This document shows, one piece after another, positions 8,606-30,185 of a stretch of DNA of 40,152 nt. The notes below the pieces were generated by a model, which was given only the letters and a program-made list of their open reading frames with translations, made no database searches and was not told where the DNA came from. Position numbers and translations under genes: made by a program. Numbering within the stretch: position 1 is the first letter of the stretch; the number at the start of each line of letters is the position of its first letter. The stretch comes from a virus, in the IMG/VR virus record IMGVR_UViG_3300031898_000274, positions 1-40,152 of that record. One strand, 5' to 3'.

Positions 8606-10117
8606 TTATTTCAACAACTTCCCTAACCGAGGTTGAATTCTCGCCTTTCTAAGATTTCCCTTTAAGAGAGAAACACTTGACCAAAAAAGATAGACTTTAG
8701 TTTGTAATAACAATGCAGTGACATAGATAAGTTTGGCTAGTTTTTCCAGTGTTGCTGACTGCACTCTTTGCTTGTATAACTCACGTTTTCCGTACGGTTC
8801 GTGGTAGAAAAATTCTTTCAGAAAGCGCAGATGCACATTCTGCATGAAAGCACGACGGATCTCCCACAATTGCTCATCTGACAAGTTATGGAGTTTATCC
8901 AGAACGTATTTTTGGCTCCCTAACAAAGCCAAGCTGAAGCCCAGATTTGAAAGCACCTCTCGAACGACTAGAGCGTGTTTCGGCGGAGGCTGCTCCATAA
9001 CCTTCTGCATTCCTGCACGCTGGAAAAATGGGTTATATTTGGCCATAACCGCGATTGTTTCCACGTAAGGCGTGCCAGCAAGCGGCAGTGTTTCTCTTAC
9101 GAGTCGTTGACCCAAACCTATAGTGCGATATTTAGGGTGAACAACAACCCGCATGATGACGCTCAGCTTTCGATTTAAGTCTTGCACGCTCATTTTGGGC
9201 AGAACTTTGAGGCGTCCAGCAACGGTCATTCCAGGATAGCAGTAAACTATGACGCCTGCAACCTCAGAGCCACGTATCGCACGAAAAATCTTCCGCACAA
9301 TTCCAACAGTGTGGCTGCGATAGTGGAAACCAGCCAGCAACTCATAATCAGATCTTGTGCCTTCCTCTATGCGAATTTCCTTCATTAGGCTGCACTCCTT
9401 AGCCGGCTCATTTAGATAATAGCGCACTTCAATTTCTTTCCCAAAACGCTTGTGAACATGAACTGAAGGCTTCAGGTCTTCGAAAAGGTCTGTGTGCGTT
9501 GTGGCTGCAAGAACCGCCTTTCCCTCTTGACGAGCCAGCTTCTGAAGATTATAGGCTACTATTTTAGCTGTGTCTCTATCTAGCGTGGCGCAGAATTCGT
9601 CCATAACCCAAAACTGAGCTTTGCTTTCCATCATTTTTGCGATTTTGTAGCGGTATTTCTGTCCATCAGATAGCTGTTCAAAGCTACGCAGAAACAGAAA
9701 AGCATCATTCAAACCCACTTTGCTAAGGAGCTCTAATGCTTCCTCAACGGTTTCGCCAATAGTTTCGACAAGGGGTTTGCCTGGCTCTGGTTGGATATCC
9801 GAAATATTGATTAATGAAACTTCCATGTCTTGCTTGATGTCTTTCTCCAGAGCTTTCAACAGAACAGACTTGCCTGAGCCGGAATCGCCTGTTATGAGCG
9901 TGATGTCTTTGGACCCAATTTTCAACTCCACGTTATCATAAACCACAAACTTTTCCCATTGGTCCAAGCCTAAGCCGAAGCTTTCAGCAACAGCCACAAC
10001 CCTTTCAGTCGGTTGAGGAGCAGCAGTTTCATAACTGATATTGACTATGAATTTGCCGCTGTTTCGGTCATATCTGCGGGCCCACTGTGTGATTCGGAAA
10101 AACTCTCTTCTTCGCAA
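8606..10117 (-). CDS. ABC-type ATPase fused to a GNAT acetyltransferase (COG2401-like)
   Basis: A 503-residue two-domain protein. The ATPase half has Walker A GDSGSGKS (77-84), signature LSDGQ (149-153) and Walker B FWVMDEF (169-175), with no membrane segments, so it is a soluble ABC ATPase. The second half (about 245-400) is GNAT-like, with VVVHPKYRTIGLGQRLV matching the acetyl-CoA pyrophosphate loop. This fusion is the known COG2401 arrangement, found in archaea and tailed viruses and of unsettled function. A helical C-terminal tail of about 90 residues follows. The only start close to the upstream stop is TTG at 10117; a weak point. It sits just after the tail hub and a 28-residue basic gene. 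Confidence 0.85.
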   Translation of the reverse strand: MRRREFFRITQWARRYDRNSGKFIVNISYETAAPQPTERVVAVAESFGLGLDQWEKFVVYDNVELKIGSKDITLITGDSGSGKSVLLKALEKDIKQDMEVSLINISDIQPEPGKPLVETIGETVEEALELLSKVGLNDAFLFLRSFEQLSDGQKYRYKIAKMMESKAQFWVMDEFCATLDRDTAKIVAYNLQKLARQEGKAVLAATTHTDLFEDLKPSVHVHKRFGKEIEVRYYLNEPAKECSLMKEIRIEEGTRSDYELLAGFHYRSHTVGIVRKIFRAIRGSEVAGVIVYCYPGMTVAGRLKVLPKMSVQDLNRKLSVIMRVVVHPKYRTIGLGQRLVRETLPLAGTPYVETIAVMAKYNPFFQRAGMQKVMEQPPPKHALVVREVLSNLGFSLALLGSQKYVLDKLHNLSDEQLWEIRRAFMQNVHLRFLKEFFYHEPYGKRELYKQRVQSATLEKLAKLIYVTALLLQTKVYLFWSSVSLLKGNLRKARIQPRLGKLLK

Positions 10118-11805: not shown

Positions 11806-12353
11806 TATTCAACGCCTCTGCGATAATACTCCTCCTCGCCAGCTCGCCTAATCGACCTCGATGGTGTTCTCGCAAGCTCCGCATTGTACTCCGCTTGGGC
11901 AGATGCAGCATCCCGGGTTGTTGAAGCAAGCCAAGCCATGTAGGCTGCGGTGGCAACAATCAAGCCGACGCCCAGTGTGAGCAGAGCGATTTTCATGGCT
12001 AAGGCAGCGTTCAAACCCCAAGTTGCGATGGTGGCTGCGATTTTAGCCTTAATCAAAGCCCAAAGGCTTGTTTGATGTGCTATTGTGGCGCCTGTTAGGG
12101 TTGTTTGAACGGTTGTTCCCGCGCCCATTGAAACATTGTGCGCTGTTTGAGCTGCAGTTGTGGTTGTCAGCACTGCTTTTAGGCTGGTAAAGAGGTGGAT
12201 GGTTGCCATTACACCGCTTACTGTTCGTCCTATCTGTGAATCAAATAGACCGAAGGCTGAGCCCATGTGTAAGACGTCATGGACAATGGAGCGGAAGGCG
12301 TAGCTCGCACGGTTTTCGGCACGGATTGCAATCGACACTTCATGGAACGACAT
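11802..12353 (-). CDS. Short tape-measure-like protein, 183 aa
   Basis: A 183-residue protein, rich in Ala and Thr, with long hydrophobic helices (about 45-70 and 95-145, including ALLTLGVGLIVATAAYMAW). The N-terminus SIAIRAENRASYAFRSI resembles the start of tape-measure proteins. It lies between the gp10-like protein and the tail hub, the classical tape-measure slot, and overlaps the hub gene by ATGA. At about 1.5 angstroms per residue it would specify a tail of only about 27 nm, far shorter than usual siphoviruses (tape measures of 600-1,500 residues). It could instead be only one part of the tail core. Confidence 0.65.
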   Translation of the reverse strand: MSFHEVSIAIRAENRASYAFRSIVHDVLHMGSAFGLFDSQIGRTVSGVMATIHLFTSLKAVLTTTTAAQTAHNVSMGAGTTVQTTLTGATIAHQTSLWALIKAKIAATIATWGLNAALAMKIALLTLGVGLIVATAAYMAWLASTTRDAASAQAEYNAELARTPSRSIRRAGEEEYYRRGVEY

Positions 12354-12724
12354 TAGCCAGAAGCCTCCCTTATTGCGTCTCTTATGGCTCGATTGACATG
12401 TTGTGCCAATCCAAGCATGCCCAGTTCTAAGGCGCGGCTCAGAAACCGTCTGGCCTGCATGAATCTAGTGCCTAACTCTACAAAAACGGCGTAGGGAGCC
12501 CTTGCCCCAAGCTTGAACGCCCATTCGCCCACTCTTTGTGCAAAAATCGTGCTGGCTAAGTAGCCTGTGCGTTTAGGCGCTAAGCTTTGAGCCCGTGTCT
12601 GCATGGCTTGAACTTCAAAGTCTAATGCCTCACCCACATACTCACGCATGTTCTGGTCTAAACTATCCAGTTTACTACGTAGCTCGGGAATGCCGTGCAC
12701 ATCCACTTGCATTTCAACCGACAC
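12353..12724 (-). CDS. HK97 gp10-like tail completion protein
   Basis: A 123-residue neck/tail-completion protein of the HK97 gp10 family. Family marks are a VDVHGIPELRSKLDSLD beginning, a central LAPKRTGYLASTI and the C-terminal YAVFVELGTRFMQARRFL. It joins the head connector to the tail in related phages. The GTG at 12724 is preferred: GGGAGG lies 9 bases upstream and the frameshifted chaperone reading frame ends at 12714, overlapping it slightly. An ATG at 12784 in frame adds 20 basic residues without a ribosome binding site and would lie inside the chaperone frame. Its location after the chaperones, rather than before the tail tube, is unusual. Confidence 0.8.
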   Translation of the reverse strand: MSVEMQVDVHGIPELRSKLDSLDQNMREYVGEALDFEVQAMQTRAQSLAPKRTGYLASTIFAQRVGEWAFKLGARAPYAVFVELGTRFMQARRFLSRALELGMLGLAQHVNRAIRDAIREASG

Positions 12725-13249
12725 GATGATGCGCCTCCCGCTTGGCTTTAGCCACTTCCTCCTCTGTCTGGCGATCCATTTCACTCAGAATCACAGTGAA
12801 GGTCTCGATGTCTCTTGCTGATTCTTTTCGGATTTCGCTGGGCAGCTTGTTAAATTCTTTGCAGAGTCTGTACTCGGTGAGCGCTGGGTGGGGCTTGCCT
12901 CTTCGGATGGCTCTGATAAAAAACGCTGCTCATCTGGAGTGATGCCACAGAGTTTGTTAGCTACTTTGGAAAATAACTCGCCTAACTCGATGGGAATGCC
13001 ATCTTCTTCACCTAGCAGTTTCCCTAGGCTAATGGGCTTTGAATTAGGCTGCTCCCGAAGACTAGCAAAAATTGTCTCAGCTTGGATAGCCACAAAGTCG
13101 CTGTTAATGACTTGTCCTGTGATGTGATGGTACTTGGTCCATTTTTGGATTATGCGGCTGCGTTTAGCCCACGTTATCTCTTGGAAGACGTAGCGTCCAG
13201 CGTACTGTTCTCCGAAGCGATTGTCTAACTCAATGACTTCTCTTCGCAT
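12714..13249 (-). CDS. Tail assembly chaperone, -1 frameshift (GT) product
   Basis: Predicted fusion made by -1 ribosomal slippage at 12917-12923. Residues 1-111 come from the zero frame; the ribosome then continues in the -1 frame from ATC at 12917-12915 to TGA at 12716-12714, adding 67 residues (178 in total). The added part is coherent and typical of GT C-termini: LTEYRLCKEFNKLPSEIR, then an acidic DIETFTVILSEMDR and EEEVAKAKREAHH. Tail chaperone pairs of this kind coat the tape measure during tail assembly. The -1 frame stays open across the whole gap up to the next gene, which the zero frame does not explain. Confidence 0.75.
12791..13249 (-). CDS. Tail assembly chaperone, zero-frame (G) product
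   Basis: A 152-residue protein encoded just after the tail-tube region and before the tape measure, where tail chaperone G lies in lambda-like and many archaeal tailed viruses. The N-terminus (ELDNRFGEQYAGRYVFQEIT, then WAKRSRIIQKWTKY) resembles tail-chaperone N-domains. The C-terminal 40 residues are Ser/Pro/Thr-rich and low in complexity, as expected where zero-frame coding is not the main constraint. A slippery heptamer is in the correct phase at codons 109-111. The ATG at 13249 overlaps the upstream small gene by 20 bases. The annotation depends on position and the frameshift more than on detailed homology. Confidence 0.75.
   Translation of the reverse strand: MRREVIELDNRFGEQYAGRYVFQEITWAKRSRIIQKWTKYHHITGQVINSDFVAIQAETIFASLREQPNSKPISLGKLLGEEDGIPIELGELFSKVANKLCGITPDEQRFLSEPSEEASPTQRSPSTDSAKNLTSCPAKSEKNQQETSRPSL
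12917..12923 (-). promoter_or_regulatory. Slippery heptamer U UUU UUA for -1 frameshifting
   Basis: On the coding (minus) strand the codons are CGT TTT TTA, giving the canonical X XXY YYZ heptamer T TTT TTA in the right phase (CGT is codon 109 of the frame beginning at 13249). Downstream, a CAGAG and a CTCTG about 40 bases apart could form a stem. Both known requirements, phase and an open -1 frame running on for 67 codons, are met. Confidence 0.75.
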
Positions 13250-13448: not shown

Positions 13449-14303
13449 TCAGCTGATGACAACGTCACGGGCAACAAATGGCGCCCTTAGAGAAACCAGA
13501 TCCTCAATCTTTGTCGGAGAGCCTACTTTCTCCCACTTGCAGTACTTGAATAAAGCGCTGTTGGCTCCACCTAAGCCGAATTTGAGACTAAACTCGCTGT
13601 CGTTGACAACGTCATCATATTCCTGCTTGCTCTCAAACTCAAAGGTCAACTCGCCTGTCAAGACTCGATGACGTTCTTGGAGATATTTGAGCAGATGTCC
13701 GCTTGTGCTTCTGATGACTGGCACTCTTTTGAAGTTGTTTTCGATGGTGAATTTCCAGTCGGTTACTCTTTCAACGGCAGCTAAGCCTGTGCCGTCTGCA
13801 GCTCCTCGTTGAACATAGCTTTCGTGGTAAGGAACCACTCCACTGTAATCGGCGTATGTGGCTCCAGTGATTTTAGCGGTTCCAACAGCGATATCCTGAC
13901 CGATTAGCTCAGCCGTGGCTTTTACAACATCCTCAATTGAGCACTCAACCGATACTTTGTCCATTCTGCAGCCTTTATGCAGCAAGTCTATGATGCTGCT
14001 TGTTTTCTCGTAGAAAACCTCGATGCTCAGCGAGTTCAGAGTCTGTATGTGCTGCAGAAAGTTAATTGGTGCATCGCTAGGAAGAGCATACGCAACTTTC
14101 AGGTCGACGTGTCTTAGTCCTCTGCGGACAGTCTTTAAGTCTCTTGAGCCTATGCCTCTAACCTTGATTAATCCTGGGTCTAAGGCAGGTTCAACGTTTT
14201 CCGCTGTTGCAATTCCGAGCATGCTCGGGTTTGTTGGTGTTACCCCGTATGTTGATTCTTGTACGTAGTAGATTTTGGCTTCGTGTGCTCCATATACACT
14301 CAT
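13449..14303 (-). CDS. Major tail tube protein
   Basis: A 284-residue protein likely to polymerise into the tail tube. The N-terminus (KIYYVQESTYGVTPTNPSML) is a hallmark of the tail-tube family of archaeal and bacterial siphoviruses, where a residue string like ESTYGVTP begins the first strand. The rest is beta-rich, with LTGELTFEFESKQEYDD and the closing LRAPFVARDVVIS. It follows the tail terminator and precedes the chaperone genes, the standard order. GAGGTGA lies 9 bases upstream of the ATG at 14303. Length is at the larger end for the family, with no obvious inserted domain. Confidence 0.85.
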   Translation of the reverse strand: MSVYGAHEAKIYYVQESTYGVTPTNPSMLGIATAENVEPALDPGLIKVRGIGSRDLKTVRRGLRHVDLKVAYALPSDAPINFLQHIQTLNSLSIEVFYEKTSSIIDLLHKGCRMDKVSVECSIEDVVKATAELIGQDIAVGTAKITGATYADYSGVVPYHESYVQRGAADGTGLAAVERVTDWKFTIENNFKRVPVIRSTSGHLLKYLQERHRVLTGELTFEFESKQEYDDVVNDSEFSLKFGLGGANSALFKYCKWEKVGSPTKIEDLVSLRAPFVARDVVIS

Positions 14304-14318
14304 TTTTCATTTTCACCT

Positions 14319-15299
14319 CTATGTTGCCTGAACATTCTCAAACAACCATGATTTCACAGTGAATTCTGTTCTCCAAATGAAGGGCTTAACATTCACTTGG
14401 TCCTCGTCACGATAAGAAACAATGTCGCAGTAGGTGATGCCTTCAACCGTGACAACGCATTCCGAATAGTCACAGTACAATATGGCTGCGGTTACGCCGT
14501 TGCTTGGGTTTGTGGTTCTGGCAAGCAAGTAGACGTAGCCGCTGCTGTCGATGAAATCTGTCAAGTTTGAGGTGAGCGTAATTGTGATTACTTCGTCTGC
14601 TCCGCCGGTTCCAGTCGCAGGGTTCTGCCAAGCTGAAGCTGTAAAATTCCAAACCTTAATTGTTGTGCCGTTTCCACCTGGCGCTGTGCCATATCCCTCA
14701 AACTTCAGAACTATTTTCTTTACAACTTTCTCGTCTGAGTCGATTTTGAATCTGAAAAGCATTAGTACATATTCATTGTTTACTGTATGAATCTTTGAGT
14801 ATCTAACGTCATCACTATACCAAATCTTTTCGTATTCCGTGTTTGTCAGCTCGGTCCAGCTTGCAGAGGTAGGAGATAATTCACTGCTTGAGCCTGCATG
14901 ATAGGCTTTGTGCGTGCCTGTTGTTTGCCCGACTCCAACAAAGTTGTAAAGCGTTTCATTGGGCTTGTTTCTCTTCTCCCTTATGATGCGGTTGATTTCT
15001 GCTCGCATGCGGTCTCGCATTTTCCGTCCTGTCATGGCTACGCCTTCCTTGTCGATTGCCCAAACATTGACCAAAAAATAGCCAACTCGTTTACGTGCCG
15101 TTCCTGAGAATCCGATTTTCTGGTCTTCGCTGCGGTCAAGCCCAACCGTTACTTGTCCATCATAGTTTTTGAATAGTTCGCGGTCATACCATTCGCTTGA
15201 TACGAGCACGCTGGCTAAACCGCCGTCATCTCTAACAACTCGCATGTTTTTACTGAGCAAACGAACAAGTGTGGTTACTGGGTCCTCTATGTCAGGCAC
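14319..15299 (-). CDS. Tail terminator-like protein with inserted beta domain
   Basis: A 326-residue virion protein. Residues 1-115 resemble tail terminator or neck proteins: an N-terminal helix (TTLVRLLSKNMRVVRDDGG), beta strands with VGYFLVNVWAIDK and a GRKMRDRMRAEINRIIREKR helix. The last 30 residues (VKPFIWRTEFTVKSWLF) complete the fold. An insertion at about 120-290 contains a Gly/Thr/Ser-rich beta sandwich (YGTAPGGNGTTIKVWNFTAS, then SGYVYLLARTTNPSNG) resembling extracellular binding modules. It lies between the head-closure protein and the tail tube, the usual place for the terminator. The normal family length is about 130-150, so the insertion more than doubles the protein. A glycan-binding role is inferred. 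Confidence 0.75.
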   Translation of the reverse strand: MPDIEDPVTTLVRLLSKNMRVVRDDGGLASVLVSSEWYDRELFKNYDGQVTVGLDRSEDQKIGFSGTARKRVGYFLVNVWAIDKEGVAMTGRKMRDRMRAEINRIIREKRNKPNETLYNFVGVGQTTGTHKAYHAGSSSELSPTSASWTELTNTEYEKIWYSDDVRYSKIHTVNNEYVLMLFRFKIDSDEKVVKKIVLKFEGYGTAPGGNGTTIKVWNFTASAWQNPATGTGGADEVITITLTSNLTDFIDSSGYVYLLARTTNPSNGVTAAILYCDYSECVVTVEGITYCDIVSYRDEDQVNVKPFIWRTEFTVKSWLFENVQAT

Positions 15300-16707
15300 C
15301 TAAGAGCCTCCTCAAAACAGCTTTTCGGTAGACAGTTTCGCCTTTGAAATCAAACTCCTGAATATCCAAAACCTCGTAGTCAACGCCTTTGCGACGTATC
15401 TTGTCATGATGCCTTATGGGAGCAAAAACGTGAATAGTTAGGTAGTCGTTGACGATGTAGCCTGGCTCGATTAAAACCTCGTCGACTCTGACTGGAGAAA
15501 CAATTGCTTGAATATCCGTGCCTTCACCGTAAGAAACCTTGTCGGCTGCTTCTCTGACTGGATACAGAATTACGTTTTCGCCTTTGGAGCGCAAAATTTG
15601 TGTAAAGCGTGTTAGTGGGTATTCGTAGTTTAGATAGAGCAGTGAGAGCCAAGCAACAGTAGCCATAGCTTGCTTGTTTTCCACATAGCTGTAGTCAGCA
15701 TGCTTGACGCCCCAAAACATGAACTCGCTTTGATGCTTATCGATTATTTTCATGCTGAACTCAAGGCTTGCTTTGTCGTGGTTTTTGCGGATTTTCCACA
15801 AGATTCCAGACGTAACCGCATCATAGTAGTCGCAAGCTGGAAAGCGATTGACAACATCGATGTAGCCTGCCCAACAGATGGCTGGGTTGTAGGCAGGGTA
15901 TTGGGCGCTGGGTCTCATCGTGTTAATGAAGTTGTAAACCTTCTGCGCTGTTAGGCTCCAGCCTTCATATTCATAAAGCCCGAGCAATGCGTAGGCGAAA
16001 GGATCGTCATAAATCTCGTTTTCAGTCAAACCTACCCTATGCCAAGCTCCGTCTCCGCTTGGTGGCGGTCGATACTCAAGCCAAAGGTCCTCGAACCCGG
16101 AACGCAGAAACGCTATAGCCTCAGACATCATTGTGTTATATAACGTTGCGTTTGTCGGGTCTTCTGTGACAAGCATTTTTAATCCGATGAAAGCATAGAG
16201 GTTTTCAATGTCCATTTGATAAAGCCATGCGTCGTTTATGTCGACTGCTCGCAGAAATCCACCGTAATACTTGTCGTGTATGCCTGCTGGAGGATGCTGC
16301 ATGTTATAGAGGAAGGTTGCTCCGGCGAGTTTTGCGCCATTGAGATATCCGACTGTTCCAGTTAACTTGTAAGCTTTGATGAGAGCAGGAATAACTCTGG
16401 CTGCATCAACGCTATAATAAGAGCTGCTTGTTTCAGTGCTTTTAAAACCGCCATAAGCCTTCTTTGCTGGGTCAGTGTTTTGCTGGGTCAAAATCCAATC
16501 GGAGAGACTCACAACTTTGTTATAGATATCCGTTTGTTTGCTGGCGAATTGAGAATCATAGTAAGCTTCATAGAGAAAGTCAATAGCAAATGCAGTGGCA
16601 AAAGCAGCTCTACCCCATGTGGGATCTGGAGTGTTTGGAGGAATAACGTAAACATAAGGCGCATAATCCATTATGAACTGGTAATAGGCATTAGGAACAA
16701 CGCCCAT
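15292..16707 (-). CDS. Head-closure protein fused to an alpha/alpha-toroid (glycosidase-like) domain
   Basis: A 471-residue protein of two parts. Residues 1-365 are helix-rich, with repeated aromatic helix pairs (WGRAAFATAFAIDFLYEAYY, then VVSLSDWILTQQN, and DPFAYALLGLYEYEGW) and Gly-Gly turns, the look of six-hairpin glycosidase-like (alpha/alpha)6 folds. Acidic residues at E230 and D234-D235 could be catalytic but this is unproved. Residues 366-471 resemble an SPP1 gp16/HK97-type head stopper, with VSPVRVDEVLIEPGYIVNDY and DYEVLDIQEFDFKGETVYRK. Its start overlaps the adaptor stop as TAATG and it overlaps the terminator gene by 8 bases. Typical head-closure proteins are about 100-120 residues, so the toroid is an extra, probably projecting from the neck. 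Confidence 0.7.
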   Translation of the reverse strand: MGVVPNAYYQFIMDYAPYVYVIPPNTPDPTWGRAAFATAFAIDFLYEAYYDSQFASKQTDIYNKVVSLSDWILTQQNTDPAKKAYGGFKSTETSSSYYSVDAARVIPALIKAYKLTGTVGYLNGAKLAGATFLYNMQHPPAGIHDKYYGGFLRAVDINDAWLYQMDIENLYAFIGLKMLVTEDPTNATLYNTMMSEAIAFLRSGFEDLWLEYRPPPSGDGAWHRVGLTENEIYDDPFAYALLGLYEYEGWSLTAQKVYNFINTMRPSAQYPAYNPAICWAGYIDVVNRFPACDYYDAVTSGILWKIRKNHDKASLEFSMKIIDKHQSEFMFWGVKHADYSYVENKQAMATVAWLSLLYLNYEYPLTRFTQILRSKGENVILYPVREAADKVSYGEGTDIQAIVSPVRVDEVLIEPGYIVNDYLTIHVFAPIRHHDKIRRKGVDYEVLDIQEFDFKGETVYRKAVLRRLLGA

Positions 16708-17066
16708 TATGGTCCCTCCAGCAGGCTTATGCCATGCCTTTTTTGGCGGGCTATGAACCGTTCAACTTGCTCCCGCAAGAATTCAAGCTGTTTTCCAGCA
16801 TTCGGAGAAACACGTAAATCTCCAACACTGAAGTCTAACCCAACAGCAGACCCGCCTGTGACCTTGCAATAACTGTAGATTGCTGATAGGTTGCGGATGG
16901 CGTTGGCTTCTGCTTCTGTGCAATTTGAAGCGTCAAGCGCTCTCCCGATTTCTTCGCTTAAGAAGGCTACAGCCTCGTCTCTAAAGGCTAGGACATCCGT
17001 GTCACTGATATCAGACTCTGATAAACCTAAGCGTTTACGAATCTGGTCGGCGGTAACTGCAACCAT
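16707..17066 (-). CDS. Head-tail adaptor (gp15/gp6-like connector)
   Basis: A 119-residue helical protein of the connector type that binds below the portal. It shows TADQIRKRLGLSESDISDTD, then an AFRDEAVAFLSEEIGR helix, a NAIRNLSAIYSYCKVTGG helix and a final RVSPNAGKQLEFLREQVE with a basic tail. That matches the helix bundle of HK97 gp6 / SPP1 gp15 proteins in order and size. It is the first gene of the minus-strand connector-tail operon, and the next gene starts within its stop (TAATG). A gene-poor, AT-rich stretch of 145 bases upstream separates it from the divergent plus-strand terminase operon and must hold both promoters. Confidence 0.75.
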   Translation of the reverse strand: MVAVTADQIRKRLGLSESDISDTDVLAFRDEAVAFLSEEIGRALDASNCTEAEANAIRNLSAIYSYCKVTGGSAVGLDFSVGDLRVSPNAGKQLEFLREQVERFIARQKRHGISLLEGP

Positions 17067-17875: not shown

Positions 17876-18319
17876 ATGGCAAGAGGCAAACCATGGGCTG
17901 ATGAGGAAATCAAGCTTTTAATGGAAATGGTTGCTCAGGGCATGAATTCTCAGCAAATCTATGATAGTGGTAAACTTCCAGGCAGAACCTATCGAGCCAT
18001 CGTCAAGCAGCTTGGAGAATGCGGTAGTATAGTGTACACTAAGCCCGCTGTAATAGTGCGCACTATAGAGCCATCGAAACATGAATTGAGTATGGATGAG
18101 GTTGTTAAGCGGTTTAGCACAGCTTTCAAACAGATATGCGAGTTAAAAGAGCTTGACAAACTAACGCTTGAGCGGTTTCGCATTATTTTCCAAGCAGCCA
18201 AAGACTATGGTCCTCTATTGAAGTTTTATGAGAATTGGGAGGTTATGGAGCAGCGTGTTGCAAAGATTGAGGAGCTTCTGGCGGAGCTACAGGCTCGGAA
18301 GACTCGAGAAAAAAGTTGA
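17876..18319 (+). CDS. Small terminase subunit (TerS-like), 147 aa
   Basis: A 147-residue protein immediately upstream of the large terminase. Residues 1-50 form a helix-turn-helix with WADEEIKLLMEMVAQGMNSQ and GRTYRAIVKQLGE, the usual TerS DNA-binding element. The C-terminal half is helical and ends in a coiled coil (MEQRVAKIEELLAELQARK), suited to oligomerisation. ATG 17876 is preferred over TTG 17870 because AAGG precedes it and it begins MARGKPW. It would recognise viral DNA for packaging. Two matched palindromes inside the gene (18030-18041 and 18054-18065) may be its target site. Identity rests on position and the helix-turn-helix; sequence homology to any named TerS is not claimed. Confidence 0.75.
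   Translation: MARGKPWADEEIKLLMEMVAQGMNSQQIYDSGKLPGRTYRAIVKQLGECGSIVYTKPAVIVRTIEPSKHELSMDEVVKRFSTAFKQICELKELDKLTLERFRIIFQAAKDYGPLLKFYENWEVMEQRVAKIEELLAELQARKTREKS
18030..18065. promoter_or_regulatory. Paired palindromes TAGTGNNCACTA inside the small terminase gene
   Basis: TAGTGTACACTA (18030-18041) and TAGTGCGCACTA (18054-18065, extending to ATAGTGCGCACTAT at 18053-18066) are two perfect palindromes with the same arms and different centres, 24 bases apart. They lie within coding sequence reading SIVYTKPAVIVRTIE. Packaging initiation sites of tailed phages often lie in the small terminase gene, so a pac-type site is a reasonable candidate; a transcription operator is the alternative. Confidence 0.45.
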
Positions 18320-19640
18320 GGAAGCAGACCAGCAAGCTCGAGAATTACTCAGAGAAGAAGAGGTTGAAATTAAAGGACCAGTGGATTTTGCAGAGACGAT
18401 TTTGGGAATGAAGCCCTTTCCCTATCAAGCCAAGCTTCTTGAAGACACGAGCAAGCGTATTGTGGCATGTATGGGAAGGCAGACGGGTAAAACCACGACC
18501 ATAGCTATGAAAGCCATCCATTTTGCAGACGCCAACCCAAAAGTGACCGTGTTGATCACGGCTCCAAGCCTTCGCCAAAGTATGATAATGTTTGACCGCA
18601 TAGCCACGTTCGTTTATTCCTCAGCAGATCTCCGAAACAAAGTAGTGAGAGCGACAAGAACATTAATTCACTTTGAAAATGGAAGCAAAATAATCGCCTT
18701 GCCCTGTTCTGAGAATTTGCTACGTGGGTACACGGCGCACATGGTGATTCTTGACGAGGCGAGCTGGATTCCCGAGGAAGTCATTACACAGGTTCTTTTC
18801 CCAATGCTGACCACAACACAGGGTTATGCGATTTTTCTGAGCACGCCTTGGGATAAAAATCACTTCTTTTATCGAGCCTTCGTAAATCCAAACTACAAGG
18901 TGCATAAAGTCAAGTCTGAAGAATGCCCGCTTGTGACCCAAGAGTTTCTCGAGGAGATGAGGGCAAACATGACTCGGGAAGCCTATTTAATGGAGTATGA
19001 AGCCGAGTTTGTTGAAGCCTTAAACAGTTATTTCCCACAAGAACTTATCCGTAAATCCGTTGAACTCTCCCAAAAGCTTGGTGTTGAACTCTATACAAGC
19101 CTTGAAACGTCTTTCCCAAGCGGTAACTACTACGCTGGTGTGGACTTCGGCAAACTCGCCGATTACTCAGTGCTCACGGTTTTGAAACGTGAAGATGACA
19201 CACTTAAACTCGTTTACCTGCATCAGTTTCCGCTTGAAACCCCATACAGCCAAGTGATAGGACACATGGTAAGAGCTAACCAGAAATTCTCGTTTAGAAA
19301 AATGCTTGTGGACCAGACGGGTGTAGGCGAACCCGTAACCGAGGAAATATGCGCTCAGGGCATAAGAAACGTGGAAGGAATAAAATTCACGGTTCAAACC
19401 AAGGAAGAGCTGCTCTCAAGCCTCAAAATCGTCATGGAGCAGAACCGTTTGGCAATACCATATCATAGGCAACTGTGCGAGCAAATTAATGAGCAGCAGT
19501 ATAGCTACAGCAAAAGCGGGCACCTGCAGTTCAGTCACCCAGAAAACGCTAAAGACGACATGCTGTGGGCATTAGCGCTAAGCGTCTATGGAGCAAGAGA
19601 GCTAAGAAGACCGCCAGCGTTCACTTTCGGACGAGAGTAG
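18228..19640 (+). CDS. terL: Large terminase subunit (ATPase-nuclease)
   Basis: Packaging motor that pumps DNA into the capsid and cuts it. The 470-residue protein has an ATPase domain with Walker A GRQTGKT (83-89), Walker B MVILDE (172-177) and a coupling FLSTPW motif (about 203-208). The nuclease domain has Y-A-G-V-D306-F-G, D362 (LVDQTGVG) and the D443-D444-M-L-W block, the RNase H-like acidic triad. The start is uncertain: ATG 18228 overlaps the small terminase by 92 bases, with GTG 18255 or TTG 18258/18267 as alternatives; the first 30 residues are non-conserved and basic. It runs opposite to the capsid and tail genes. Confidence 0.92.
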   Translation: MRIGRLWSSVLQRLRSFWRSYRLGRLEKKVEEADQQARELLREEEVEIKGPVDFAETILGMKPFPYQAKLLEDTSKRIVACMGRQTGKTTTIAMKAIHFADANPKVTVLITAPSLRQSMIMFDRIATFVYSSADLRNKVVRATRTLIHFENGSKIIALPCSENLLRGYTAHMVILDEASWIPEEVITQVLFPMLTTTQGYAIFLSTPWDKNHFFYRAFVNPNYKVHKVKSEECPLVTQEFLEEMRANMTREAYLMEYEAEFVEALNSYFPQELIRKSVELSQKLGVELYTSLETSFPSGNYYAGVDFGKLADYSVLTVLKREDDTLKLVYLHQFPLETPYSQVIGHMVRANQKFSFRKMLVDQTGVGEPVTEEICAQGIRNVEGIKFTVQTKEELLSSLKIVMEQNRLAIPYHRQLCEQINEQQYSYSKSGHLQFSHPENAKDDMLWALALSVYGARELRRPPAFTFGRE

Positions 19641-21760: not shown

Positions 21761-22645
21761 CTAAGTGATGCCTGTTATTTCACAGATGGCGGTTGGCCTC
21801 TTTATTCTTGGAACGACAGCTTCGTAGACTTTGAATTGATGGTTCATGTCGATTCGTTGCATGTAAAAGGTTTTGAGGTCCTGTGCCACGCATAAGTCGG
21901 CGTTTTCAGAGCCCGACTTCATCAGTATTGCGCTATCTGTTCCTCCAGCTGACGACTTGATTAGTGGTGTCACATAGATTTGTCCTTGTATTATCTCTTG
22001 GATTTTTTCAAGCTGGCTTATTCCTGTGTTGGCGATTAAAGCCAGTGCATCCATGTAGGCGCTTGGTTGAAAAATGAGGTCGTAGGGTGATGGATAATTC
22101 TTATTGAGCAGTTGTTTGGCAGCGTTGCGTACGGTTGTTAAAGCGTTTGGCGATGTTGCCCATGCTCCAGCGCTTGCCTGCGTCAATCTTCCAGTGACAG
22201 TTGTTAAGCCTTGAATGCCCAGCCTTGGCTTGCCAGTGATTTCGCCGTTGAGAATAAGCTCCTCTTCAAGCTGAGCAACCACGAGCGCTGCTGACTCTGC
22301 GTTGGCCGTGTCAAGGGGTGTTCCACTTCGTCTGGAAGCTTCCAAGTCTCGCCAATGTATTCTAAAATCTTTGTGCAGTATGGGAACAATCAATGACTTC
22401 CTCGTGTAAACGATGACGTCTTGGGCTGGTGTTTCGCCGTACATGCTGATTATGGCTTCGCTCATCTCTGTGAGCTCGTCCCATGTGACGGTCATGACGC
22501 CTACGCCTGCGAGTTGTTTAAGAGGCAAGACACGTCGGCCAACGAGCACGGGTTGAACAGCTCTGACTACGGCTTCGTCAAGTTGCTTCCATTGTTCCTC
22601 TGTGAGCGGTGCCTGTGCGGTTCCGACAAGCTGTAAGGGTTCCAT
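21761..22645 (-). CDS. Major capsid protein, HK97 fold, encapsulin-like
   Basis: A 294-residue capsid protein. The sequence strongly resembles the encapsulin/linocin-M18 branch of the HK97 fold: an N-terminal PLTEEQWKQLDEAVVRAVQP helix (encapsulins have a similar tryptophan-containing helix), LVGRRVLPL, a long VPILHKDFRIHWRDLEASRR region and SAALVVAQLEEELILNG followed by GIQGL. The E-loop and P-domain would lie in residues 60-140. It has no delta domain of HK97 type, but a separate scaffold-like gene lies upstream. It follows the decoration gene and precedes the small head protein. I am confident that it is the shell protein; closeness to encapsulin is a reading of motifs. Confidence 0.85.
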   Translation of the reverse strand: MEPLQLVGTAQAPLTEEQWKQLDEAVVRAVQPVLVGRRVLPLKQLAGVGVMTVTWDELTEMSEAIISMYGETPAQDVIVYTRKSLIVPILHKDFRIHWRDLEASRRSGTPLDTANAESAALVVAQLEEELILNGEITGKPRLGIQGLTTVTGRLTQASAGAWATSPNALTTVRNAAKQLLNKNYPSPYDLIFQPSAYMDALALIANTGISQLEKIQEIIQGQIYVTPLIKSSAGGTDSAILMKSGSENADLCVAQDLKTFYMQRIDMNHQFKVYEAVVPRIKRPTAICEITGIT

Positions 22646-25914: not shown

Positions 25915-26414
25915 TAGATTTCCATCTCACATAGAGTGTAAACCCCCTTCTTAGGAGCAAGAGGATAATCGCCTATCTTTTGTCGAATCGGAATTTTCTG
26001 TTCCATGGGGCTACCCTTGATGATGTGACAATAGATTTTAGGATGGCCTTCAGCTTTCAGTTTTTCAGCAAGAGCCTTATACATTTCAGGTGCTTCTCCG
26101 CTATAAGGGGTGAGAGGCATCACTTCAATGATTGGTGAGATTGGAATTGAATATGCTGGAAATTGGAGCCCAATAGCCTTAACTATCCCATTTTCCGAAA
26201 CAATGTAAAATCGAGTGTTAACATACTCTTCTTCTTTTACTTGATTCTGTCGCATGAAGTGACCAATAAAAAAGCCTACAGCCCATTGCCTTCCCAAAAA
26301 TCCAAATTCACTATGTAATGCCCAAACTTTCTTCATGCTATCTTCCAGTGCTTGAATGAAAGTTTCAATATCGCCTTTGCTATCAAAGTTGGCTTCTCTA
26401 ATTTCTAAGGGCAT
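25914..26414 (-). CDS. Acetyltransferase-like (GNAT-type) protein, 166 aa
   Basis: A 166-residue protein placed between a glycosyltransferase and a hypothetical gene. The layout of strands and helices is GNAT-like: an N-terminal helix (SKGDIETFIQALEDSMKKVW), a RFYIVSENGIVKAIGLQFPA strand pair, a conserved PLTPYSGEAPEMYKALAEKL helix region and a closing strand KIYCHI. The classical Q/RxxGxG/A loop is not evident, so the family is uncertain. It overlaps the glycosyltransferase stop by 17 bases. A role in modifying virion glycans or proteins would fit its neighbour, but this is inference. Confidence 0.5.
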   Translation of the reverse strand: MPLEIREANFDSKGDIETFIQALEDSMKKVWALHSEFGFLGRQWAVGFFIGHFMRQNQVKEEEYVNTRFYIVSENGIVKAIGLQFPAYSIPISPIIEVMPLTPYSGEAPEMYKALAEKLKAEGHPKIYCHIIKGSPMEQKIPIRQKIGDYPLAPKKGVYTLCEMEI

Positions 26415-27345
26415 ACCTCTTCACGGCCAGTTTAACATATTTTTCCATTTCTTTTTGGAAGCGTTTCTGACTGTATTTTTCAGCTTCTTTTCTCAAAACC
26501 TTGGGGTCATATTGCGCGTGGTCAAAGTTCTGAACAGTTTTTCTGAGGTTTACCACATAGGGCGGTTTAATCCTCACTCCAAGCGTTGGGCTGTGTATAG
26601 TTTCCTTAAATCCGCCTTCATCCACTACGATTGCAGGCGTTCCGCAAGCCATCGACTCTATGGGTACAAGCCCGAAATCCTCAAAGTAGCCAGTTTGAAT
26701 TGTGGCTTTGGCATGAGTGTAAAGTTTTGGAAGTTCTTCCTCTGTTACTTCACCCAAAACCTCAATGCTATCGCAACCTTCCACAAGCCTAAGCAAATCA
26801 TGGTTGGGGCGCTTATCACCAATGCCTCCTACGACTTTAAGCCTCTCCTCCAATCCCTTGAAGGCTTCAATCTGCGTGGTTATTCGTTTTTGCCAGTTGA
26901 TTCTTTGAACAGACAAAAAGTAGTCTCGCTTCGGATGAGAGCTTGTAGGTTTGAAATGGTTTAGGTCAACTGGCGGATAAACAACGTAGCTGTCAACGCC
27001 AAAATATTTCTTGAGCATTCTTCTGGTGAATTTTGAATTTGAAAGAATGATGTCTGGTTTCTGATGCAGTTCCTTCAGCTTATTGTTTATCCATTCCCTA
27101 TCGAGCTTTAAGACTTCCCTATGTATTGGCTCAACCATCCGCACAATCTCATTGAACATGAATGTTGTCGGGCGTCCGCTACGGTGATTATAGTAAATGC
27201 TGGGCTTGTCGATGATGTCCAAAAATATCAGGTCGAGAGGACAGTGGAATATTATTACGTCACTTTCGCTTAGTTCCTTATGATTTGCCAGCAGGAGCCG
27301 TGCTGAAAGAGCGAGTTTTATGCTTTCTTTGTCGTATGTTTCCAT
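26398..27345 (-). CDS. Glycosyltransferase family 4-like protein (major part)
   Basis: A 315-residue protein with a GT4 C-terminal domain: YFLSVQRINWQKRI, then HAKATIQTGYFEDFGLVPIE with the donor-binding E-x7-E (F-E-D-F-G-L-V-P-I-E), and MACGTPAIVVDEGGFKET. The N-terminal Rossmann half is present except for its first strand. That missing strand and the GGGERV loop are encoded just upstream in the same frame (27355-27543), separated by a TGA at 27355-27357. Together 62 + 315 residues with the gap equal a normal GT4 length of about 381. A GAGG lies 7 bases before ATG 27345, so restart is possible. It transfers sugars, probably to virion or cell-surface components; acceptor unknown. Confidence 0.75.
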   Translation of the reverse strand: METYDKESIKLALSARLLLANHKELSESDVIIFHCPLDLIFLDIIDKPSIYYNHRSGRPTTFMFNEIVRMVEPIHREVLKLDREWINNKLKELHQKPDIILSNSKFTRRMLKKYFGVDSYVVYPPVDLNHFKPTSSHPKRDYFLSVQRINWQKRITTQIEAFKGLEERLKVVGGIGDKRPNHDLLRLVEGCDSIEVLGEVTEEELPKLYTHAKATIQTGYFEDFGLVPIESMACGTPAIVVDEGGFKETIHSPTLGVRIKPPYVVNLRKTVQNFDHAQYDPKVLRKEAEKYSQKRFQKEMEKYVKLAVKRYALRN

Positions 27346-27555: not shown

Positions 27556-28527
27556 CTACAGTTGAACTGGGCTGAGAAGCATCAATGCTGAATTAAATTC
27601 GCCCACGCCTCCAGTCACCTTCATTTGCACTTGATAGCTTTCGTTTCCCGACTCACTTGACCAGTCTATCCATGCGGTTTCCACAATCGCCCAACCAGCA
27701 CCGACAGCCGAAGCCTCTGAACCAGTTACAGGCGTGCCGGCGTTTTGGCGCAAAACTCGTATGTATATTGTTTGTCCAGCGGTGTCGTTTTTTATGTGGT
27801 AAATGAACTTCACGTATAGTGTCGCCTTGAGCTTGAAGAGAGCAGGATTAAATGCGATGTCCGAGTTTGCAATTGTCACATAGACTGTGGAAGTTGTTGT
27901 GGCTCCCTCTGCACCAAACTTAAAGGTTACAACGACTCCTAAAACATCATTTCCGCCTTTCTCATGACTGGTGGCGTGCAGTTGATTGTGGTGTTGATCC
28001 GGGAGCACATTGAGTAAATCTGCATGGTCGACTACTCCGCCACCGCCAACATAAACACGTTTAACCAGGTCCTTTGCGTGTTTGCCGTCTACCGTGTCGG
28101 CGTCTAAACCTTTTCGTTCAATTTGCTCTGGTTTTAACTTGCCAGTTATGTCTTCAGAGTCATGGCTGTGTTTTTTAGGCTCGTGGAGATATGGTTCTTT
28201 AAGTTTTGGATGGTCTTTTTTCAACTGTTCAAAATCGTAGGGCTCGGGAATTTTCAAGTCAGCAATGTCTTTAGCTATGTGTCCGTGAGGCTGAGGCTTC
28301 TGTGGGCACACGCCTGTTTTCGGGTGTGCATATGGTTTAGGCAGCTCTGTTTTCGCAACATATTTTTCGTGCGTGTGAGTTTTTGCTGCATAGTTTTCAT
28401 GTTCATGGGTTGTGAAAAGCGTTTGTAAATGAGACAATGCAGTGTTTTGTTTCTCCAGCTGCTCCGCTAATTCTTTGGTTCTTTTTTTGATTTGTCTTTG
28501 TCTTCTAAACTCAATTAGGTTTGTCAA
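27556..28527 (-). CDS. Fibre-like virion protein, 323 aa
   Basis: A 323-residue protein next to the portal. Residues 1-45 form a basic coiled coil. Residues 40-170 are His-rich and repetitive (HEHENYAAKTHTHEKYVAKT, HGHIAKDIADLKIPEPY, KKHSHDSEDITGKL), with ERKGLDADTVDGKHAKDL, a motif common in phage tail fibres. The C-terminal 140 residues are a beta sandwich (TSTVYVTIANSDIAFN, QTIYIRVLRQNAGTPV, ESYQVQMKVTGGVGE) that may bind receptors. TTG start at 28527 overlaps the portal stop. Histidine repeats could chelate metal and stabilise a trimeric shaft. Its position beside the portal rather than among tail genes suggests a head fibre. Confidence 0.65.
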   Translation of the reverse strand: MTNLIEFRRQRQIKKRTKELAEQLEKQNTALSHLQTLFTTHEHENYAAKTHTHEKYVAKTELPKPYAHPKTGVCPQKPQPHGHIAKDIADLKIPEPYDFEQLKKDHPKLKEPYLHEPKKHSHDSEDITGKLKPEQIERKGLDADTVDGKHAKDLVKRVYVGGGGVVDHADLLNVLPDQHHNQLHATSHEKGGNDVLGVVVTFKFGAEGATTTSTVYVTIANSDIAFNPALFKLKATLYVKFIYHIKNDTAGQTIYIRVLRQNAGTPVTGSEASAVGAGWAIVETAWIDWSSESGNESYQVQMKVTGGVGEFNSALMLLSPVQL

Positions 28528-30185
28528 TATTCCAGTTCCACGTCAGTTTCTTCAATTAGTTTTTTGCCGTCTTCATCGGTAAGCACCTTTTTGATGTGGC
28601 GTTTTTTGGGTTCTCTCGGCTTAGCCGCCATGTCGGCGACTGCTTTAATGAATGGTGAAAAGTCTGGTTGCGACTGAGGCTTCAGCGGTTGATCTGGCTT
28701 CACGTAGATAGTGATGGGCTTCTTGTCTTCGCCTATTTCCTCCATCCATTGATAAAAGGTGCTTGTGCTAATGCCTAGGTCTCGGCAGATTTTGTTGACA
28801 CTGTCGCCCCGCCTGACTCTTTCGGTTATCAGCTGGTCCCAGCGTTTACCGTGTTTCTCTTCAAGCTCCAACTTGCGTTTACTCGTCCTCTCAACAACAG
28901 TTGGCTCCACAAAACCTTGACCGCCACTTGAGAGTCTAAGCAGTCCTAAAACTATGTCTCCGCCAGCAATCGGCTTCAACCCTTCAAGTTGGCGTATCTC
29001 GTTCACGGTTTTCCAGCTTGTGCTCACCTCTAAGCCACGGATTTTGTCAAGCTCCGCAGCCGCTTGGTCTCTTGGGTTGATTTCGAAGCCGCCAAGCCAA
29101 TTGATTTTATAGTGCACGTCTGGAATCTGCTTGGTCTCCATTAAGCGGTCGATTAACTCAGTTATGCCTTGCTCATATCGACTTTGACAGTCACTAATTA
29201 GTTTGAAATATTCGCGCTCATTCACTTCACTTCCAGCAAGCTGTCCAGCTTGAGCGCCTCTTAGAATGGGTAAGGGAACGCCTGAGCCCGCACTGATGTT
29301 CTCCATTATGGGCAGGTAATACGGCTCCGGGTCCAGAGACCTGCCAGCTAAACCCTTGAATTCTATCGTTGTGTTCTCGTCTGTCCACATACTTGTTTGA
29401 GCTGTTAGAGGTCCCCACTCCTCCTTATACTTTTTAATCTGCTCTTCTGTGGCGCCTTTAACCGTGACAATAGGGAAGCCGCTACCATAACGATACATGG
29501 TTTGACCCATGCCCCACCGAATATTGCGTAGAACTGTTAGGTCGTCCCAGACAGGCTCCAAGACACTTATGCCCTTATATCCTGGCTGAATTTTTCGGGT
29601 GGCAAAATGAATCACACGAGTGTGGTGAACCTCGGCTTCTTCAGTTTCGCTGATTTTTATTTTATAGATTTCTGGCAAACCGAAACGTGGGCTCTCCTTC
29701 TTCTTATCAACTTCAACATTGATTATCATTGGTGGACCGTAGGCTTCCAACGCCACAATTTTCTCAGGCTGTAAGACAGGCGCCTTTAGCGTGACACCTT
29801 TGTCTTTGTAGCCTAAAACAATAATTGACCAGCCGTATGCTCTTTCGAACACGGTTACTTGCGTAAAAACATCTTTGGCATTGAGAAGAAGTAACTCTTT
29901 CTGCACGGTCTCGTTGAATTTGGCTTGGTCAACGCCTTCTTCAAGAGGTTCAACCTCAAACCAGTTGTCAAAGATGTCATGGGCTACAGTGAAAACGATT
30001 CTGTGGGCCACGGGCTCACGTTTCAAAGCAAAAGTGATGTTTGCGTCTGTTAAGGGTTGACCGAACTCGGCTCCTAAACCCGTGTAAGTCCGCTGAATCT
30101 CAGCCTGCGTCTTGCTGGATGCGGAGTGAAGCCCGAAGAGCCTAGCAACGGTTGCCTGCGCCACCTGTTTCAGCCTAGCAGCCAC
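28524..30185 (-). CDS. Portal protein with C-terminal helix-turn-helix extension
   Basis: A 553-residue portal that would form the dodecameric DNA gate and docking site for terminase. Residues 50-410 match the DUF1073-type portal: EPVAHRIVFTVAHDIFDNWF, YGWSIIVLGYKDKG, GISVLEPVWDDLTVLRNIRW, GVPLPILRGAQAGQLAGSE and the NEREYFKLISDCQSRYEQG helix. Unusual is a helix-turn-helix at 448-484 (RWDQLITERVRRGDSVNKIC, DLGISTSTFYQWMEE), then a basic proline-rich tail. A standard portal ends near 430. The extra HTH may touch DNA or the terminase. GTG start 30185 lies 8 bases past the stop of a small gene. Confidence 0.85.
   Translation of the reverse strand: MAARLKQVAQATVARLFGLHSASSKTQAEIQRTYTGLGAEFGQPLTDANITFALKREPVAHRIVFTVAHDIFDNWFEVEPLEEGVDQAKFNETVQKELLLLNAKDVFTQVTVFERAYGWSIIVLGYKDKGVTLKAPVLQPEKIVALEAYGPPMIINVEVDKKKESPRFGLPEIYKIKISETEEAEVHHTRVIHFATRKIQPGYKGISVLEPVWDDLTVLRNIRWGMGQTMYRYGSGFPIVTVKGATEEQIKKYKEEWGPLTAQTSMWTDENTTIEFKGLAGRSLDPEPYYLPIMENISAGSGVPLPILRGAQAGQLAGSEVNEREYFKLISDCQSRYEQGITELIDRLMETKQIPDVHYKINWLGGFEINPRDQAAAELDKIRGLEVSTSWKTVNEIRQLEGLKPIAGGDIVLGLLRLSSGGQGFVEPTVVERTSKRKLELEEKHGKRWDQLITERVRRGDSVNKICRDLGISTSTFYQWMEEIGEDKKPITIYVKPDQPLKPQSQPDFSPFIKAVADMAAKPREPKKRHIKKVLTDEDGKKLIEETDVELEY

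Follow-up and report, generated by a model that had tools for sequence, protein, structure and literature searches.

A head-closure protein with an N-terminal predicted (alpha/alpha)6 toroid in viruses of uncultured archaea

The window, by which we mean the whole stretch of viral DNA analysed (an IMG/VR virus record of 40,152 bases), encodes an integrase, RadA and a maturation protease together with genes for a head and a tail. These include a portal protein (28524–30185; PF06381, 1.6e-32), an HK97-fold major capsid protein (21761–22645; PF04454, 5.5e-49; phrog_264, 1.1e-19), a terminase large subunit (18228–19640, plus strand; phrog_2, 3.3e-47), an HK97-gp10/Neck1-like protein (12353–12784; phrog_5, 7.4e-17) and a tail tube protein (13449–14303; PF18906, 4.7e-17), which served as the marker gene for locus comparison. 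All features given with window coordinates lie on the minus strand except the terminase gene. The portal protein carries a C-terminal helix-turn-helix at about residues 444–514 (PF13384, 1.3e-4; Sf6 small-terminase-like, 0.0085) and looks as if a small-terminase-like DNA-binding part had been fused to it. Another gene (8606–10117) joins an ABC-type ATPase (phrog_293, 1.7e-39) to an acetyltransferase-like part (GNAT, 0.003); it was found in 22 of 290 loci, many of which are too short for it.

The gene studied here is an open reading frame (ORF) of 471 amino acids on the minus strand (15292–16707), with a GGAGG site 5′ of its ATG. AlphaFold2, Foldseek and VIA-align, together with 257 homologous stretches, divide its product at about residue 365/366 into an N-terminal (alpha/alpha)6 toroid of 12 helices in six hairpins (residues 1–366; 15610–16707) and a C-terminal head-closure, or stopper, beta barrel with a conserved EPGY stretch at 414–417 (residues 367–471; 15295–15609). 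The model of the whole protein, built with an alignment of 52 homologues, had a pLDDT of 89.5 and a pTM of 0.90. We regard the two-domain architecture as nearly certain. A separately started stopper inside the gene was ruled out: because only 5 of 238 fused genes offer an in-frame start codon at the stopper together with a Shine-Dalgarno-like site, the toroid and the stopper are predicted to be made as one polypeptide.

Direct profile searches with the single window protein gave no Pfam and no PHROG matches. The best 50 BFVD matches were mostly stoppers aligned to the C-terminal part, and none of these viral proteins matched both halves. A tblastn search of 50,697 phage records returned one match, in Pseudanabaena phage PA-SR01 (E = 1), which was left out of the evidence. 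Literature searches found no description of a head-closure/glycosidase fusion, and the papers on Bathyarchaeia viruses that we looked into do not mention one.

The toroid is clearly recognisable by structure. In the model, six hairpins lie between residues 6 and 360. VIA-align matched it to 3ren_B (Z = 28.4, 302 aligned residues, 3.2 Å), to the cellobiose 2-epimerase 5zig_A (Z = 27.9) and to the unsaturated glucuronyl hydrolase 1vd5 (Z = 25.6); the best 50 matches had Z scores of 23–28, almost all over model residues 1–370. Foldseek (best E = 2.2e-7, probability 1.00) matched it to sugar epimerases, GH8, GH76 and other toroid enzymes. The model and the structural searches thus place it by fold in the six-hairpin glycosidase-like superfamily. 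The fold is common over the whole domain to cellobiose 2-epimerases, GH88, GH76, CPF_2247 and the C-terminal domain of C5-epimerase, with a sequence identity of 6–13%; unlike these enzymes, the window toroid is joined to a virion protein. Profile searches of the PDB gave only weak toroid matches, to C5-epimerase (0.05–0.14) and GH76 (0.016). The C5-epim_C profile matched 41 of 52 family members (best 1.4e-5), the window protein not being among them.

The K1-lyase_Rider profile matched six members (best 4.3e-4), probably through a 68-residue insert that the alignment of 52 homologues places in loop 1, on the cleft side, of some members. Loop 1 of three loci (L044, L064 and L070) is tied to this insert site. 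Three broken copies of the fusion gene (L284, L285 and L286) all end at residues ~24–29, at PP(D/G)TP, which is the insert site in other members; this point of the gene is possibly a recombination hot spot.

The stopper was also recognised by fold. The last 112 residues (360–471), folded alone, formed a stopper barrel with a pLDDT of 86.8. VIA-align aligned 97 residues to the Pam3 neck protein 8hdr_A (Z = 12.6, 3.3 Å), and nearly all of its best 36 matches were neck or stopper chains. Foldseek matched it to 8hdr_A (1.5e-4), the T1 stopper (8.8e-4) and SPP1 gp16 (7z4w, 3.3e-3). Neck stoppers matched structurally were those of Pam3, T1, phage 812, XM1, lambda and SPP1 (gp16), and the predicted structure has the barrel fold of the Hc1/SPP1 gp16 class. 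Among 26 stopper domains of relatives, 20 matched phrog_939, "head protein" (best 3.6e-8), and 4 matched phrog_161, "head closure Hc1" (best 0.0013); the window's own domain matched neither. The protein shares its barrel with the SPP1 gp16/Hc1 (PF05521) stoppers and the Pam3 neck protein, as well as its position between presumed adaptor and tail. Most of the known stoppers have ~110–130 amino acids, whereas here the barrel follows a toroid of 365 residues. A preliminary description of this DNA had proposed, from the letters alone, that the C-terminal ~105 residues are a head stopper and the 365 front residues a six-hairpin glycosidase-like toroid. Structure prediction with high-scoring structural matches bore out both halves; the front part was predicted neither as disordered nor as a non-catalytic neck fold, and the likeness of the C-terminus to head-closure proteins was found.

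The same description had taken the connector role from gene order, and the comparison of homologues agrees: the order adaptor, toroid/stopper, terminator, tail tube was confirmed in them, and the stopper lies between the adaptor and the terminator and tube genes, the first two named by position. The presumed head-tail adaptor (16707–17066, 119 amino acids) is directly upstream, with a TAATG overlap, and conserved in 241 of 290 loci; it had no convincing Pfam or PHROG profile match. The presumed tail terminator (14319–15299, 326 amino acids), assigned from gene order, contains an inserted domain of ~170 residues (about residues 117–283), with a weak match to GH114_assoc in the window (E = 0.0033). 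Of the toroid loci, 143 have this insert and seven lack it or have it only in part. None of the six toroid-less loci has it; it was never seen apart from the toroid. The head gene block of the window also holds a GT4-like glycosyltransferase (26398–27345; 4.1e-24), and a different, GtrB-like one lies nearby in one related locus (L279). There may be a connection between the neck toroid and glycosylation of the virion or of the host surface.

Relatives of the fusion protein were encoded in 257 IMG/VR stretches. Because homologues 53–86% identical were found in at least 80 contigs, with 18 genome contigs in addition, an assembly accident is not the source of the fusion. We compared 169 distinct tail-tube loci; in 148 of them, a single ORF encodes both the toroid and the stopper. 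In two others, the two parts were in overlapping ORFs, probably through a frameshift, and 11 were too short upstream to judge. The remaining eight had a stopper without a toroid; by their coordinates, two of these start at the edge of a contig, so that six cases are real. The fusion is a property of a viral lineage, kept in nearly all of it.

Proviruses with relatives of the gene were found in Bathyarchaeia genomes, including one assembled chromosome (CP070759). When 398 genomes were sampled from the phylum, every full-length match lay in a genome that the search of the class had also found. One match was in a Njordarchaeum bin (L099), which may be a binning error. One genome assembly (Bathyarchaeota A05DMB-2, G001) has the fusion gene six times, each copy on its own contig, representing several related proviruses or viruses. 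Odd ORF lengths in five genomes (G125, G137, G099, G121 and G117) were considered as alternative architectures and rejected, since most seem to result from frameshifts or deletions in proviruses that have decayed. In another genome (G059; L280:7321–9408), a stopper domain is in frame at the end of an apparent host gene for the topoisomerase VI B subunit, perhaps a provirus remnant.

The six toroid-less loci have adaptor, terminator and tube genes in common with the window. In five loci (L279 and L293–L296), the same module has a bare stopper of ~115 amino acids with nothing added, and one stopper of this set matched phrog_939 at 9.2e-8. Because close relatives keep the module with a bare stopper, the toroid is a separable extra domain. 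The tail-tube tree requires two changes between the toroid and bare-stopper states; its root is only a midpoint, which does not tell one gain from loss.

A third arrangement was found in L347, the sixth of these loci, and in seven further contigs, where a bare stopper (in L347, phrog_161 at 2.1e-5 and PF05521 at 0.0047) is followed by a 113-amino-acid gene and a 384-amino-acid gene. The 384-amino-acid family (L347:4359–5513; also L353–L360), which lies with its 113-amino-acid companion between the bare stopper and the terminator, is unrelated to the fused toroid; in L358, the contig begins after the stopper. The family had no Pfam match of note, and its sole PDB profile match was to a GH8 glucanase (E = 0.22), where the aligned region contains an E and a D that are invariant. 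The aligned stretches presumably include catalytic acids of GH8. From this sequence likeness, the family is possibly a GH8-like toroid, and a sugar-type protein at or just after the stopper may be a recurrent feature.

Toroid enzymes bind sugars on the side with the long loops and the starts of the inner helices. We defined this cleft side from the secondary structure of the model and knowledge of the fold. The invariant residues of the toroid include D28, R104, W222, R224, D234, D235, C278, W279, Y282, Y294, Y295, D296, W332 and W353. The invariant acids D28, D234, D235 and D296 and the near-invariant D101 and E168 lie in loops of the cleft or where inner helices begin; W222, W279, W332, W353, Y273, Y282, Y294 and Y295 are invariant aromatics of the cleft side. 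Fully invariant polar or aromatic residues made up 17 of 198 positions on the cleft side and 4 of 157 on the other (p = 0.013). With a conservation threshold of 90%, the excess lost its significance (p = 0.20), and a test of overall conservation was weak (p = 0.023). The toroid is not a passenger, because it is more conserved than the stopper (mean pairwise identity 0.638 versus 0.558). Alignment of the toroid assigned no catalytic pair or motif common with a named enzyme family. It is likely that the toroid touches or cuts sugars; the most economical role for the cleft is to bind a sugar, and catalysis is possible.

The stopper of SPP1 is a hexamer; where it meets the adaptor barrel, its N-terminus fits into a crease in the adaptor ring (PMC9701221). 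By analogy, the window protein would close the portal channel after packaging with a sugar-enzyme-type toroid on its N-terminus, and, since the SPP1 stopper is hexameric, about six toroids of 40 kDa per virion would form an outer collar around the neck. They would lie outside because they are too big for the channel and because the N-terminus of the SPP1 stopper is at the adaptor junction. The suggestion of a decorated virion, made in the preliminary description, follows from the fused architecture, and each particle probably wears a ring of toroid domains at its neck; the companion suggestion of an armed virion, bearing an active enzyme, is only a possibility. Because the toroid is attached to the stopper, only filled, closed heads would bear the collar. 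The cleft would bind, and perhaps cleave or rearrange, a glycan of the host envelope or of the matrix around it, which would help the particle to cling to this layer or travel through it.

We favour, with rather better than even confidence, a neck stopper with an outer collar of six toroids that bind or process host or matrix glycans. Against it, no enzyme family in Pfam or PHROG claims the window protein, the cleft enrichment is lost at the lower threshold, some related viruses live without the toroid, and the identities of the adaptor and the terminator rest on gene order. The protein would not be at the neck if its C-terminal part were no stopper, as the missing Pfam and PHROG matches of the window sequence might suggest; the stopper fold matches, the PHROG matches of relatives and the bare stoppers in the same gene position make this very improbable. 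A purely structural toroid, stiffening the neck or aiding assembly with its cleft unused, would fit its fusion to an essential assembly protein and its conservation at least as high. We consider it unlikely, because bare-stopper relatives, which have the adaptor, terminator and tube genes too, can presumably assemble their particles with no toroid, and because invariant residues are enriched on the cleft side.

A stronger form of the favoured explanation has the collar as a working glycosidase, lyase or epimerase that cuts or remodels polysaccharide of the host surface or matrix. The conserved acids at the cleft, the enzymes among the best structural matches and the possible GH8-like replacement gene with its invariant E and D are consistent with it, but alignment showed no catalytic motif in common with a named family, the fold also fits binding only, and the GH8 match is weak. 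A working enzyme is thus quite possible, though short of likely. A bolder reading, possible though less likely than not, is that an enzyme-bearing, six-copy collar of an uncharacterised glycan-active family is armed only when the head is filled, with relatives using an unrelated GH8-like gene in that position. Somewhat doubtful is a lectin role, in which a degenerate enzyme would fix the virion to glycan of the host or to the sediment matrix, comparable to the carbohydrate-binding neck passage structures of lactococcal phages. In its favour are the many invariant aromatics of the cleft side, the existence of neck passage structures whose parts are carbohydrate-binding or pectin-lyase-like (PMC10684548, PMC4759559) and the added domain of the adjoining terminator, but strictly conserved acids would be unusual in a pure lectin.

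Decorated phage necks are already known, and decoration built into the closure protein is a variant of them. Neck appendages of the phi29 type likewise place proteins that bind or act on sugars at the neck; they differ from the window toroid in being separate proteins with a beta-helix fold on a short-tailed phage. In lactococcal phages, the sugar-related parts are encoded by a separate, variable gene adjoining the tail tube gene (PMC4759559, PMC10684548). The neck passage structure is a variable, partly sugar-related neck decoration encoded just before the tail tube gene, as here. It is a separate accessory gene, whereas the window domain is fused to the stopper, in one ORF in those 148 tail-tube loci, and kept in nearly the whole lineage.

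Stoppers are usually regarded as minimal closure parts of ~110 residues. Here, a large domain of the sugar-enzyme type has been added and kept in a widespread lineage of tailed viruses whose hosts are uncultured archaea. The fusion shows how a virion can naturally display a domain in multiple copies at one defined site. Expression and tests of the toroid domain need no cultured virus, and the domain offers a handle on how viruses of Bathyarchaeia meet the surface glycans of their hosts.
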